From the NCBI RefSeq assembly GCF_000949385.2, contig NZ_JYKO02000001.1, positions 2,132,620 to 2,196,619 of the forward strand: DNA of 64,000 bases. Direction: 5' to 3'. The notes under the pieces were generated by a model. It searched no databases. It saw only the letters and a list, made by a program, of their open reading frames with translations, and was not told the DNA's origin. The position numbers were made by a program, and so were the translations under genes. The DNA comes from Pseudomonas sp. LFM046 (GTDB lineage: Bacteria > Pseudomonadota > Gammaproteobacteria > Pseudomonadales > Pseudomonadaceae). Below, piece by piece: positions 34,703-39,469 of the stretch; within the stretch, counting starts at the first letter, position 1; every line of letters starts with the position of its first letter.

Positions 34703-35377
34703 TCAGGCCGACAGGCTCAGCTGGCTGCCGACACGGCTGCTGCCGTAGCCGGCGGCACCTGCTTCGTATTGCTTGAGCAGGGCGGCCACCAGGCGACCAT
34801 AGCCCTGGTCGTCGCTGCTGCCCGTCGATTCTTCCGACTGACCGAACTGCATGCCATCCGGTCCCTGGCCTGGGGGCGGAGGTGGTGGGGCGAGGGCGGC
34901 GGCTTCGTCCTGGTTGAGGCTGCCATCGCCGTCGCTGTCCAGTTCGCCGAACAATGCGTCCACGTCCAGCCCGCTGTCGGTGCCGATGGCGCTGGTCAGT
35001 TCTTCCAGGCCGAGCACACCGTCGCCATCGCTGTCGATGCTGGCGAACATTTCCTCGGGGTTGGGCCCGCCCTGGGGTGGCGGTGGCGGCGCCAGGGCGG
35101 CGGTTTCGTCGAAGTCGATGGAACCGTCCGAGTTCGCGTCCAGCTGGCTGAACAGCTCGTCCAGGTCGATTTCCAGGCTGCTATCGCTCTCCTTGGCGGT
35201 GTCGAGGGCGGTGGACAGCTCGTCCTTGGCCACGCTGCCGTCGCCATTGGCGTCCAGCAGGCTGAAGAGTTTTTCCTGGGCCTTGTTCTGTCCCGAGGCG
35301 CCGCAGCCTTGCGGGCGCGCCTGGGTCGAGCTCGAGGCGTAGCTGTAGCTCGAGTAACTGCCGACTCCACTGATCAT
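34703..35377 (-). CDS. Four-EF-hand calcium-binding protein with polyproline linkers
   Basis: A 224-residue protein with four canonical 12-residue EF loops: DANGDGSVAKDE (42-53), DANSDGSIDFDE (80-91), DSDGDGVLGLEE (115-126) and DSDGDGSLNQDE (147-158). Two near-identical linkers contain ALAPPPPP runs after loops 2 and 4, so it looks like a duplicated pair of EF-hands. The N-terminus (MISGVGSYSSYSYASSSTQA) has no signal peptide or membrane segment; the style resembles XopAW-like bacterial EF-hand proteins. Likely calcium buffer or sensor; location unknown. A motif shared with the adjacent two-component operon lies upstream. Confidence 0.85.
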   Translation of the reverse strand: MISGVGSYSSYSYASSSTQARPQGCGASGQNKAQEKLFSLLDANGDGSVAKDELSTALDTAKESDSSLEIDLDELFSQLDANSDGSIDFDETAALAPPPPPQGGPNPEEMFASIDSDGDGVLGLEELTSAIGTDSGLDVDALFGELDSDGDGSLNQDEAAALAPPPPPPGQGPDGMQFGQSEESTGSSDDQGYGRLVAALLKQYEAGAAGYGSSRVGSQLSLSA

Positions 35378-35461
35378 GGGTCACTCCTGTGCAGGTTGGC
35401 GGAACCGGAATGGGTCTTCCGGTGCTGGCAGTCTCGGCGGGTCAATTGTCCAGGCTGTGTG

Positions 35462-35487
35462 GGGTTTGTATCGGCGCGCTGACAAAG
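35462..35487 (-). promoter_or_regulatory. Operator-like motif, copy 1 (EF-hand gene)
   Basis: On the minus strand CTTTGT-N9-GATACAAACCC, about 85 bp upstream of the EF-hand start codon. The same motif with identical spacing, and further matching bases outside it, occurs upstream of the response regulator gene at 37447-37472. Confidence 0.55.
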
Positions 35488-35508
35488 GCTCGCAAGCTCA
35501 TCCCGTAG

Positions 35509-35526
35509 GGTGGGCTTCAGCCCACC
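35509..35526. terminator. Hairpin GGTGGGC-TTCA-GCCCACC
   Basis: A perfect 7-bp stem with a 4-nt loop, 9 bp downstream of the histidine kinase stop; probably terminates the two-component operon. A similar GTAGGGTGG...CCACCC element is at 52779-52800. Confidence 0.6.
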
Positions 35527-35534
35527 GCCTTCGG

Positions 35535-36560
35535 TCAGCGGCGGGGAAGCGTCAGACGTGCCAACAGGCCGCCGCCCTCGGGCGTCAGCAGTTCCAGATC
35601 GCCGCCCTGCCTGCGTGCAGCGTCGCGGGCGATGGTCAGGCCCAGGCCGATGCCGCCGGAATTGCGGTTGCGTGAGCCTTCCAGGCGGTAGAACGGCTCG
35701 AACACCGTTTCCCGCAGTTCGGCGGGAATGCCGGGGCCGTGGTCGCGAACCTCAATGCGCACCTGCTGCTTGCCATCTTCCAGCCGTATATGGGCGTGGC
35801 CGGCGTAGCGCAGGGCATTGTCCACCAGGTTGGCGATACAGCTGCGCATGGCCAGGGGCTGTGCCCGAAGGGGCGCGCAGTGGCCGTCCACCGTGACTTC
35901 CTCACCCTGTTCCTGGGCATCCTCGGCCAGGGATTCCACCAGGGCCTGAAGGTCGAACCATTGCAACGACTCGTGGGCCCGCTGCTCGTTGAAGTAGTTC
36001 AGGGTGGCATCCAGCATGCCCACCATGTCACCCAGGTCCTGGGACAGGCGACCGCGCAGGGCCTCGTCATCCACTTGCTCGACCCGCAGGCGCATGCGCG
36101 ACAGCGGCGTGCGCAGGTCGTGGGAAACCGCTGCCAGCATCCGATTGCGCTGGGCCACCTGCGCGCGGATGCGCTCCTGCATGCGATTGAAGGCATGGGC
36201 GGCCTGGCGGACCTCCTGGGGGCCGCGCTCCTCGAGGGGCGGGCTTTCCAGGTTTTCGCTCAGGCGCTCGGCGGCATCCGACAGGCGCTGGATCGGCCGT
36301 GCCAGCCAGCGTGCGCCCAGCCATGCGGCGGCCACCAGGGTGACGCACTGGAAGGCCAGATGCACCCAAGGCCCACCGAAGCGCGGTGGTGGCGGTGGCG
36401 GGCCCTGGAAAGCGGGGCCCATTGCGGTCGGTGGCGGCGGCGGAGGGGGCGGTTGGCCGCCGTACTGCCTGAACCAGAGAAAAGCCAACAGGTGGGCGAT
36501 GACGATCGCCAGCAGGAAGATGCCGAACAGTCGGCCGAAGAGGGTGTCGGCCTTGCGCAT
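35535..36560 (-). CDS. Sensor histidine kinase with proline-rich periplasmic loop
   Basis: A 341-residue EnvZ/PhoR-type kinase. It has an N-terminal membrane segment (about 8-28) and a second one (about 65-85). Between them is a very short periplasmic loop dominated by proline runs (PPPPPPPP and GPPPPPP, residues about 35-60). A HAMP domain (ARPIQRLSDAAERLSENLE), H-box [21 protein letters not shown]-box NLVDNALRYA, G1 DHGPGIP and G2 GGIGLGLTIA follow. Its start overlaps the response regulator stop by one base. The signal is unknown; the neighbouring EF-hand gene suggests a cation. Confidence 0.88.
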   Translation of the reverse strand: MRKADTLFGRLFGIFLLAIVIAHLLAFLWFRQYGGQPPPPPPPPTAMGPAFQGPPPPPPRFGGPWVHLAFQCVTLVAAAWLGARWLARPIQRLSDAAERLSENLESPPLEERGPQEVRQAAHAFNRMQERIRAQVAQRNRMLAAVSHDLRTPLSRMRLRVEQVDDEALRGRLSQDLGDMVGMLDATLNYFNEQRAHESLQWFDLQALVESLAEDAQEQGEEVTVDGHCAPLRAQPLAMRSCIANLVDNALRYAGHAHIRLEDGKQQVRIEVRDHGPGIPAELRETVFEPFYRLEGSRNRNSGGIGLGLTIARDAARRQGGDLELLTPEGGGLLARLTLPRR

Positions 36561-37315
36561 CAGCCGATGTCCTTGGCGTCGAACAGGTAACCCTCGCCAC
36601 GCACCGTCTTGATCAGACGCGGCGAACGCGGATCGTCCCCCAGCTTTTGCCGCAGGCGCGAGACCAGCAGGTCGATACTGCGGTCGAACGCCTCGATGGA
36701 ACGGCCCCGCGCCGCGTCCAGCAACTGCTCGCGGCTGAGCACCCGGCGCGGGCGTTCGAGGAAGACCCAGAGCAGGCGGAACTCCGCGTTGGACAGCGGC
36801 ACCACCAGGCCTTCCGGGGATTGCAGCTGACGCAACACACCGTCCAGCCGCCAGGCATCGAAGCGGATGCTGCTGCGGGGATCGGGGCGTGGCGCTTCCC
36901 GGTCGTCCCGCACCCGGCGCAGGATGGTCTGGATGCGCGCCACCAGTTCGCGGGGTTCGAAGGGCTTGGCCATGTAATCGTCGGCCCCGAGTTCCAGGCC
37001 GATGATGCGGTCCGCTGGTTCGCAGCGGGCGGTGAGCATCAGGATCGGGATATCCGACTCCGCCCGCAGCCAGCGGCACAGGCTGAGGCCGTCTTCCCCG
37101 GGCAGCATCAAGTCCAGCACCACCACGTCGAAACGCGCTTCGGCCAGGGCCTGGCGCATGCCTTGTCCATCGTCCACGCCCACCGCCTCGATATTGAAAC
37201 GCGCCAGGTAGCCGCAGAGCAGCTCACGGATAGGGGCGTCGTCATCCACGATCAGGGCGCGGACGCTCCAGCGGTTCCGGATGAAGGGCATGTCCGAAGT
37301 GGGGGTCGATTGCAT
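36560..37315 (-). CDS. OmpR-family response regulator
   Basis: A 251-residue regulator. The receiver domain has the acidic pocket VDDDAP, the phosphorylation site VVVLDLMLPGEDG (Asp near residue 66), the Thr in MLTAR and the Lys in MAKPFEP. The C-terminal winged helix (about 150-245) is of OmpR/PhoB type, ending KTVRGEGYLFDA. An ATG at 37291 (MPFIRNR) is a possible alternative start. With the kinase it forms a two-gene operon preceded by the motif at 37447-37472; autoregulation is inferred. Confidence 0.88.
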   Translation of the reverse strand: MQSTPTSDMPFIRNRWSVRALIVDDDAPIRELLCGYLARFNIEAVGVDDGQGMRQALAEARFDVVVLDLMLPGEDGLSLCRWLRAESDIPILMLTARCEPADRIIGLELGADDYMAKPFEPRELVARIQTILRRVRDDREAPRPDPRSSIRFDAWRLDGVLRQLQSPEGLVVPLSNAEFRLLWVFLERPRRVLSREQLLDAARGRSIEAFDRSIDLLVSRLRQKLGDDPRSPRLIKTVRGEGYLFDAKDIG

Positions 37316-37446
37316 GGTGAAGCTCTTGCCGAGGGGAGGGCGGGCGCCTGCCGGCCCCGGGAATCACAAGGGAGGATGCTACCGCGCCCGAAGCGCGTCA
37401 GCCATTGGCGGGCAAGGCTGGCGCAGTCGGTTGTCGGGGGCGTGTC

Positions 37447-37472
37447 GGGTTTGTATCGAGGAGGATACAAAG
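37447..37472 (-). promoter_or_regulatory. Operator-like motif, copy 2 (response regulator gene)
   Basis: Minus strand CTTTGT-N9-GATACAAACCC, 132 bp upstream of the start codon; it also contains the perfect inverted repeat TTTGTATC-N6-GATACAAA. It matches the copy before the EF-hand gene (35462-35487). Confidence 0.55.
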
Positions 37473-37670: not shown

Positions 37671-37760
37671 ATGAGCATTCTCGACGGGGTGTCCCTGGTT
37701 CTGGCCATGGGACTGTTCATCTATCTGCTGGTGGCGCTGCTGCGCGCCGAACGCGGCTAG
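37671..37760 (+). CDS. kdpF: K+-transporting ATPase small subunit KdpF
   Basis: A 29-residue membrane peptide ([20 protein letters not shown] core), one transmembrane helix, ending LLRAERG. KdpF stabilises the KdpABC complex. The ATG at 37671 follows AAGGAG; the longer open frame upstream to 37506 is not similar to anything. kdpA follows after 8 bp. Confidence 0.9.
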
Positions 37761-37768
37761 GAGGCCCC

Positions 37769-39469
37769 ATGCAACCTCAAGACGTCGGCCTCATCCTGGC
37801 CTTCTTCGTGCTGGTGCTGGCACCGGCACCGTTCCTCGGGCGCTTTTACTACCGGGCGATGGAAGGGCAACGCACCTTTCTGACTCCGGCGTTCGCGCCC
37901 GTAGAGCGTTTCTGCTATCGCATCGCCGGCGTCGATGCCGAGCACGAACAGGACTGGAAGGGCTACTGCGCCGCCCTGCTGGCGTTCAACCTGGCCGGCC
38001 TGGCGCTGCTCTTCGCCATCCTCATGCTGCAGGGCGTGCTGCCGCTGAACCCGCAGAAGCTGCCGGGCCTGGAGTGGAGCCTGGCGTTCAACACCGCCGT
38101 CAGCTTCGTCACCAACACCAACTGGCAGGCCTACAGCGGCGAAGCGACGCTGAGCTACTTCAGCCAGATGGTCGGCCTCGGCGTGCAGAACTTCGTCAGC
38201 GCCGCTGTCGGCCTCTGCGTATTGGTGGCCTTCGCCCGTGGTATCAGCCGTCGCAGCACCGACCGCCTGGGCAACTTCTGGGTGGACCTGACGCGCGGCA
38301 CCCTCTACGGCCTGTTGCCGCTGTGCCTGCTGCTGGCGCTGTTCCTGGTCTGGCAGGGCGTTCCGCAAACCTTCACCGACTACGTCCATGCCGCGACCCT
38401 GCAGGGTGCCGACCAGAGCATCCCCCTGGGCCCGGCGGCCAGCCAGATCGCCATCAAGCAACTGGGCACCAACGGTGGGGGCTTCTTCGGCGTCAACTCG
38501 GCGCACCCGTTCGAGAACCCCACCATCTGGAGCAACCTGGCCGAAGTCGTCTCCATCATCCTGATCCCGGCGGCCCTGGTGTTCACCTTCGGCCACTACG
38601 TCAAGGACCTGCGCCAGAGCCGCGCGCTGCTGGCCTGCATGCTGGTGCTGTTCATCATCGGTCTCGGCGTGACCCTTTACCGCGAGTACCAGCCGAACCC
38701 GGCCCTGGCCGCGCTGCCCATCGAGCAGACCGGTTCGCTGGAAGGCAAGGAAAGCCGCTTCGGCATTGCCGCTTCGGCGCTCTGGGCGGTGACCACCACC
38801 GCCGCGTCCAACGGCTCGGTGAACGCCATGCACGACAGCTTCAGCGCCATCGGCGGGATGATCCCGATGTTCAACATGATGCTTGGCGAGATCATCTTCG
38901 GCGGCGTCGGTGCGGGCCTCTACGGCATGCTGCTGTTCGTGCTGATCGCCGTGTTCCTCGCCGGCTTGATGATCGGCCGTACCCCGGAATACCTCGGCAA
39001 GAAACTGGAAGCCCGCGAAGTGCGCCTGCTGGTCGCCACGCTGCTGGTGATGCCGGTGGGTGTGCTGGTGTTCTGCGGCCTGGCCATCAGCCTCGCCGGG
39101 CCGGCGGCGTCCATCACCAACCCGGGTGCCCACGGCTTCAGCCAGGCCCTGTACGCCTATACCTCGGGTACCGCCAACAACGGCTCGGCCTTTGCCGGCC
39201 TCCAAGCCAACACGCCGTTCCACAACATGTTGATCGGGCTGGCCATGCTCCTTGGCCGCTTCGGCTACATCCTCCCGGTACTGGCCATCGCCGGCAGCCT
39301 GGCGATGAAGAAGCGCGCACCGCTGGGCGCCAACAGCTTCCCCACCCACGGTCCGCTGTTCGTCACCCTGCTGACCCTGACCATCCTGCTGGTGGGCGGC
39401 CTGACCTTCCTTCCGGCGCTGGCCCTCGGGCCGATTGCCGAACATATCGCGCTGATCCAGGGCTTCTAA
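37769..39469 (+). CDS. kdpA: K+-transporting ATPase subunit KdpA
   Basis: A 566-residue membrane protein with about ten transmembrane segments; the K+-channel-like subunit of the Kdp pump that holds the selectivity filter. Recognisable loops include [20 protein letters not shown] (about residue 108), [20 protein letters not shown] and [20 protein letters not shown], which contain the conserved Gly of the filter repeats. Co-transcribed with kdpF and kdpB (12-bp gap). The pump is made under K+ limitation. Confidence 0.96.

Follow-up and report, generated by a model that had tools for sequence, protein, structure and literature searches.

Two like promoters of about 60 bp precede a predicted RhpRS operon and a neighbouring EF-hand protein gene in Pseudomonas sp. 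LFM046

The window analysed here is a stretch of 64,000 nucleotides from Pseudomonas sp. LFM046 (contig NZ_JYKO02000001.1, positions 2,132,620 to 2,196,619 of the forward strand). On its minus strand, and all in one direction, lie the genes of a response regulator, a sensor kinase and a protein with four EF-hands, whose coordinates are collected in the table below. The best matches of the regulator were OmpR-family models and those of the kinase EnvZ-like models, all below the equivalog cut-offs. A preliminary description of this DNA had proposed that one operator motif precedes both the regulator-kinase operon and the EF-hand gene, and that the regulator controls itself and the calcium-binding protein in a perhaps undescribed module responding to calcium or another cation. 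We report here that the pair is best read as the orthologue of RhpRS of Pseudomonas syringae, and we consider it quite probable that the locus represents an RhpRS system to which an EF-hand protein belongs as dedicated output, with two like promoters.

Table. Features of the locus (minus strand for all genes and promoters of the module; ORF, open reading frame).
Feature	Position	Strand	Remarks
EF-hand protein gene	34703..35377	-	ORF, 224 aa; proline runs separate four canonical 12-residue Ca2+ loops; NCBIfam XopAW family
EF-hand promoter	35427..35486	-	degenerate inverted arm 35479-35486; held-out model E = 6.7e-7
EF-hand promoter half-sites	GATAC from 35472, CACA from 35461, GACA from 35450	-	
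EF-hand promoter -10-like GAGACT	35430-35435	-	first half-site 95 bp from ATG
GGTGGGCTTCAGCCCACC inverted repeat	35509..35526	.	between kinase gene and EF-hand promoter; read directly
Sensor kinase, predicted RhpS orthologue, EnvZ-like	35535..36560	-	341 aa from ATG; short Pro-rich periplasmic loop, HAMP, HisKA, HATPase
OmpR-family response regulator, predicted RhpR orthologue	36560..37315	-	251 aa; Asp68 as phospho-acceptor, by residue count in the translated ORF
Regulator promoter	37412..37471	-	perfect inverted repeat 37450-37471; held-out model E = 1.4e-11
Regulator promoter half-sites	GATAC from 37457, GACA from 37446, GACA from 37435	-	
Regulator promoter -10-like CAGCCT	37415-37420	-	
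kdpF and kdpA, divergent	37671..39469	+	context only

Exact copies of GTGTSGGGTTTGTATCG span plus-strand positions 35457-35473 and 37442-37458, and the window held no further copy at up to three mismatches (chance expectation 0.14; two copies in 0 of 100 shuffles). Read on the gene (minus) strand, both sites are CTTTGT-N9-GATACAAACCC, upstream of the EF-hand gene and of the regulator gene, which bears out the shared motif, exact spacing and extra matching bases first described. A motif common throughout the genome had been named as one observation that would speak against shared control; the pattern GGGTTTGTATC-N8..12-ACAAA occurred twice in the whole 5.97-Mb genome, both times at this locus, and its reversed control 0 times. 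The regulator-side copy is a perfect 8-bp inverted repeat, TTTGTATC-N6-GATACAAA; in the EF-hand-side copy the gene-proximal arm alone is intact, and the extra matching bases contain the second of three half-sites phased at 11 bp. The search that had been suggested, for the motif beside EF-hand genes and OmpR/EnvZ-type pairs in other genomes, gave a divided answer: the strict N9 form was present in 2 of the 18 genomes of the genus (that of the window and G011), whereas the conserved thing is a looser, longer promoter, which recurs in other genomes of the family. The short box GTATC-N6-GATAC was found at 48 places in the genome with at most one mismatch, compared with 33 for the reversed control; counting it was dropped as uninformative, and a long model alone separated the two sites from background. 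The inverted repeat of RhpR was reportedly defined in a 2010 MPMI paper.

Scanning a genome collection with six kinase sequences yielded 40 loci, of which 38 (L034-L071) had a full-length kinase match and a regulator, one was cut (L072) and one was a distant match (L073); the comparison set of 42 loci comprised L034-L071, the window and three same-genus loci (L077-L079). Alignment of their 39 distinct regulator promoters and 32 distinct EF-hand promoters on the G of GATAC showed that the shared element is a promoter of about 60 bp and not a box alone, with an inverted arm, half-sites phased at 11 bp and a fixed -10-like box. The half-site [GC]A[CT]A was present at +11 in 35/39 regulator and 24/32 EF-hand promoters and at +22 in 30/39 and 32/32, respectively (shuffled maxima, 4-5), the regulator set being anchored on the inverted repeat alone and the EF-hand set on a template that includes the later half-sites and favours them; 25 of 33 EF-hand anchors agreed with an independent matrix. 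Most other offsets held few such half-sites, the exceptions among EF-hand promoters being +13 (24/32, a CACACA run), +44 (11/32) and +24 (6/32). An A at +38 and a T at +42, which would be the second and sixth bases of a -10 hexamer, were invariant in both sets (39/39 and 32/32). The first half-site lay 82-99 bp from the EF-hand ATG in 31 of 33 loci and 126-127 bp from it in the other two. The inverted arm was strong in the regulator promoters and weak in the EF-hand promoters, in which the first half-site was also degenerate. PhoB/OmpR-type activated promoters likewise carry direct half-sites every 11 bp that replace the -35 element, at a fixed step before the -10; the promoters described here differ from them by the extra upstream inverted arm, strongest in the regulator's own promoter. 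No description of a conserved RhpRS-EF-hand pairing or of the 11-bp half-sites was found in the open-licence literature as searched by title, abstract start and passages, and what appears to be new is the extent, i.e., the ~60-bp promoter and the recurring pairing.

A matrix built from the regulator sites alone gave 23 of the 33 kinase-to-EF-hand gaps a score exceeding the 99% level among 420 control windows. The genome scans rest on a held-out 60-bp model of 32 sequences, from which 10 of 42 (those of the window and of four same-genus loci) had been dropped; a model of all 42 sequences includes the window's own two sites, and the held-out model is the trustworthy one. At E up to 10 it returned two places only in the genome of the window, the regulator promoter and the EF-hand promoter, with the E-values given in the table. 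Among 148 genomes of the family, 37 matched at E up to 0.01, 26 with two promoters, 11 with one and none with more, the scans having scored first-look candidates in each genome (150, or 37 with the stricter filters of the family scan), by which weak further promoters may be missed. All 26 pairs were on one strand and 25 were spaced 1.89-2.12 kb apart; the remaining pair (0.97 kb) is that of G011, whose regulator gene and kinase gene are both cut. Gene content was examined in each of the 28 matching genomes from outside the genus, EF-hand genes being sought on the gene strand within ~2.5 kb around the kinase gene. The two-promoter loci carried regulator, kinase and, after the second promoter, an EF-hand gene in 19 of 19 cases; the loci with the regulator promoter alone carried regulator and kinase in 8 of 8 and an EF-hand gene in 0 of 8 (Fisher p = 4.5e-7 for 19/0 versus 0/8, ignoring relatedness). 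In G119, the single call was an EF-hand promoter behind a kinase. One locus of the fetched set, L142, probably shares its genome with L038 from the 42-locus comparison; L038 lies outside the held-out model.

The published RhpR box is GTATC-N6-GATAC (PMC4191427; published work is cited here from partial texts). Upstream of the regulator gene, the best match to this box covered 11-16 of 16 positions in all 42 loci and was perfect in the window (37450-37471). The same paper prints Asp70 as the acceptor of RhpR and places the rhpR box at -147 to -132. With numbering started at Met19 of the longest ORF, the acceptor Asp was residue 70 in four of five P. syringae-group orthologues (P. amygdali, P. 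tremae, P. avellanae and P. syringae pv. cilantro), and relative to this Met the P. amygdali box lay at -147 to -132, equal to the printed footprint position. RhpS and RhpR are PSPPH2003 and PSPPH2004 (PMC2222644), and PSPPH2002 therefore carries the neighbouring locus tag, as in the gene order found here. This gene is listed as 'Ca binding protein' with the box GTATC-N6-CGTAC among the RhpR targets obtained by chromatin immunoprecipitation sequencing (ChIP-seq) in Table 1 of PMC4191427, and exactly GTATC-N6-CGTAC precedes the EF-hand gene of the P. amygdali locus; the distances to the ATG in that table (-72 for PSPPH2002 and -69 for rhpR) differ from those measured here. The window regulator is ~80% identical to the P. 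syringae-group orthologues, and the kinase ORF is 344 aa long in two P. syringae-group loci, RhpS residues 86-344 being given in PMC4191427. Because Asp70, the box position and the gene order with PSPPH_2002 agree, sequence comparison identifies the regulator and kinase as predicted orthologues of RhpR and RhpS. The module is not, as first supposed, undescribed: the pair matches RhpRS, the box is published and PSPPH_2002 stands in a published ChIP-seq table. The gene order regulator-kinase-calcium-binding protein and the box upstream of the regulator are shared with RhpRS of P. syringae and P. savastanoi. The locus differs in that published work on P. syringae focused on type III secretion and metabolism, whereas the window genome has one type III export-gate gene, and in the 11-bp half-sites and the -10-like box, neither of which is described in the passages available (PMC4191427 and PMC6426608 contain neither 'direct repeat' nor 'tandem'). 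CvsSR, considered first for calcium, was dropped on the RhpRS match (box, Asp70 and gene order), without comparison of CvsSR sequences. As a matter of nomenclature, 'rhpC' belongs to the rhpPC operon (PMC6490944).

Phosphorylated RhpR of P. syringae is published as binding to the rhpR promoter and activating it, and PSPPH2002 was ChIP-enriched 3.1-fold, compared with 2.2-fold for rhpR (PMC4191427, Table 1); PSPPH_2002 is also among the genes whose translation efficiency was raised in a comparison of wild type with an rhpS deletion (PMC9600179). From the promoter sequences we infer that RhpR controls the EF-hand gene in the window species. The proposal that the regulator controls itself and the calcium-binding protein is supported by paired like promoters across the family; on direct binding at the EF-hand promoter the published evidence is split, ChIP being positive, the electrophoretic mobility shift assay (EMSA) contradictory and quantitative reverse-transcription PCR (qRT-PCR) negative.

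Several points weigh against control of the EF-hand gene by RhpR or against the assignment itself. Table 1 of PMC4191427 gives PSPPH2002 as EMSA-negative and its qRT-PCR as not significant in the rhpS mutant; the text of the paper names tonB4, not PSPPH2002, as the fourth EMSA negative, a conflict that bears on the single EMSA met for the EF-hand site, and the EMSA result is therefore ambiguous, with the negative qRT-PCR standing. The effect in PMC9600179 concerns translation and not transcription, and ChIP located RhpR at 167 loci in P. syringae, far above two (PMC4191427). The fifth P. syringae-group orthologue (GAW0119) has Asp71, not Asp70, from the nearest Met. In 8 of the 33 EF-hand gaps the matrix chose another place than the half-site template, 10 of the 33 fell below the 95% control level, and the matrix also called three of the nine gaps in loci lacking an EF-hand gene. 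Those nine of the 42 loci keep RhpRS with no EF-hand gene in the fetched flank, and because they do, the EF-hand protein is dispensable. The species are related and the counts are not independent events; the association between promoter and gene covers the matching genomes, 111 of the 148 having no match and lying outside the gene check. On reading, two of the three called gaps (L040 and L067) resemble relic EF-hand promoters.

Elsewhere in the genome of the window lie a BfmRS-like pair, an EfhP-like EF-hand gene close to it and a BfmR-type box (L074:3043-8901; G000:C1 ~3215042-3220900). The regulator of this pair is 54.8% identical to the window regulator over 230 residues, with the recognition-helix stretch FDRSIDLLVSRLRQ common to both, and because both pairs sit in one genome we read RhpRS and BfmRS as paralogues; RhpS has been termed a BfmS homologue in P. 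syringae (PMC4148453). For BfmR of P. aeruginosa, the motif TACAA-N3-GATACA and an 11,268-fold rise of efhP have been published (PMC8025907). As in the reading proposed here, an OmpR-family pair there switches on both its own genes and an EF-hand gene by way of a GATACA half-site. The EF-hand promoter of the window might be bound mainly by this paralogue, instead of or besides RhpR, given that the two regulators share the recognition helix and the half-site and that BfmR drives another EF-hand gene. We regard this as improbable: the BfmR motif read as a direct repeat has a 10-bp period, in contrast to the 11-bp period and inverted arm of the window promoters, the held-out model found no third place in the genome, so that the bfm promoters do not match it, and the EF-hand promoter stood behind rhpRS in every one of the 19 fetched two-promoter loci. 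The window pair was not itself taken for BfmRS, given its 11-bp layout with an inverted arm as opposed to TACAA-N3-GATACA, its short kinase loop and the existence of a separate BfmRS-like locus. Further differences are that the BfmS-like ORF of this genome has a longer periplasmic stretch and that the EfhP-like protein has a signal-like start, which the window EF-hand protein lacks.

The EF-hand protein matched the NCBIfam model NF041410 (XopAW) with 184.4 bits (curated cut-off 120) as well as EF-hand Pfam models, its loops being at residues 42, 80, 115 and 147. The match above cut-off is what it has in common with the XopAW family of Xanthomonas; it differs in being tied to RhpRS and in that its genome has one type III export gate only. 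That gate is one FHIPEP gene, presumably flagellar flhA; because it is the only one, there is probably no injectisome for RhpRS to regulate, and the injectisome genes that are RhpRS targets in P. syringae, a role that does not define the system, have no counterpart found in the window genome. Reading the protein as an injected type III effector, which requires an injectisome, was not adopted in view of the single FHIPEP gene, and the effector name is probably uninformative about function here. No strongly hydrophobic N-terminus was found in 29 EF-hand proteins (highest 12-residue mean 1.46, median 0.30). Because of this and of the single export gate, the protein is predicted to be most likely cytoplasmic or flagellum-exported. 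Lanmodulin has a Pro as the second residue of its EF loops. Rare-earth binding of the lanmodulin type was rejected, as this Pro was present in 0 of 101 loops (pattern search, 29 proteins) and NF053806 scored 23.8 bits (cut-off 135). Public records call five of its 120 listed relatives 'histidine kinase', and many others carry the name 'type III secretion system effector'; both names look misleading here. In 12 EF-hand proteins whose ends were compared, most share a Ser/Tyr-rich start (like MISGVSSYSSYS) and many end in VGxxLxxA, outside the EF-hands; these ends are possibly export or partner signals.

An addition to RhpRS control, rather than an exclusive rival of it, would be that RhpS senses Ca2+ or another cation and that the EF-hand protein serves the response. 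The output is indeed a four-EF-hand protein, and CvsSR, another P. syringae pair, is Ca2+-induced (PMC8228185). However, the periplasmic loop of the kinase is short, proline-rich and variable, and reading 42 aligned sequences revealed no conserved acidic, His or Cys cluster that might act as a ligand; the RhpS signal is called unknown in PMC6426608, 'calcium' occurs 0 times in the available text of that paper and of PMC4191427, and the passages contain no Ca2+ test on RhpRS. Calcium sensing by this module is improbable, and the calcium or cation response originally suggested is unsupported.

A reading in which the EF-hand gene makes no use of the second site, this being an inert copy of the regulator promoter or one in decay, agrees with the EMSA and qRT-PCR entries for PSPPH2002 in one study (PMC4191427), with the degenerate inverted arm and first half-site of many EF-hand copies and with the existence of relics such as the G001 palindrome upstream of kdpF, where no XopAW-family gene was found, but is very unlikely in view of the invariant +22 half-site and -10-like A and T in 32/32 distinct EF-hand promoters, the 82-99 bp to the EF-hand ATG kept in 31/33 loci despite a variable gap to the kinase gene, and the lack of a following EF-hand gene in 8/8 regulator-promoter-only loci outside the genus.

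For the RhpRS system with an EF-hand output, the promoter anatomy suggests the following mechanism. Phosphorylated RhpR would occupy a promoter in which an inverted arm is combined with three direct half-sites at 11-bp intervals, the occupied site overlapping the would-be -35 location and ending a fixed distance before the -10-like box. One copy of this promoter would activate rhpRS and the second, ~2 kb downstream, the neighbouring EF-hand gene. RhpS would act on RhpR as both kinase and phosphatase, as published for P. syringae. Within the cytoplasm, the EF-hand protein would most likely buffer or sense Ca2+; export through the flagellar apparatus is a further possibility. The recurrence of the pairing in many related species suggests that this protein is a dedicated output of RhpRS. 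We give about even chances to a wider view, in which RhpRS was ancestrally a closed two-promoter circuit whose only full-strength targets were itself and one EF-hand protein, the large regulon and type III secretion control of P. syringae arose later through weaker sites, the published inverted repeat is one end of a four-half-site, 11-bp-phased activator site, and the two paralogous pairs of the genome are each wired to their own EF-hand protein. Boxes are mostly imperfect among the tabulated P. syringae ChIP-seq loci (167 in total; PMC4191427). Work on RhpRS has treated it as a switch for virulence, and the recurring Ca2+-binding partner points to a likely core job outside pathogens. The EF-hand promoter offers a direct reporter for seeking the RhpS signal, and true RhpR promoters can be recognised more strictly by the promoter anatomy than by the short inverted repeat.

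The distribution of the module also includes loss. XopAW-family genes scored above cut-off in six of the 18 genomes of the genus, and some of the nine EF-less loci of the comparison set retain promoter relics on reading. L076 (G011) is a decayed module in which regulator, kinase and EF-hand gene are all cut. L075 (G003) keeps a reduced EF-hand gene and the palindrome, with no regulator match and a distant kinase match only (28.6%). In G001, searched for a XopAW-family EF-hand gene with none found, an RhpR-box-like palindrome persists upstream of kdpF (L090:1516-1540; G001:C1 match 800478-800514), possibly as a relic or as a site used by BfmR or for kdp. The kdp genes were rejected as a regulated or constant partner of the module, as a KdpA match was present in the fetched flank of 19 of the 42 loci only. 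Finally, the GGTGGGCTTCAGCCCACC inverted repeat is possibly a terminator or a repeat element.

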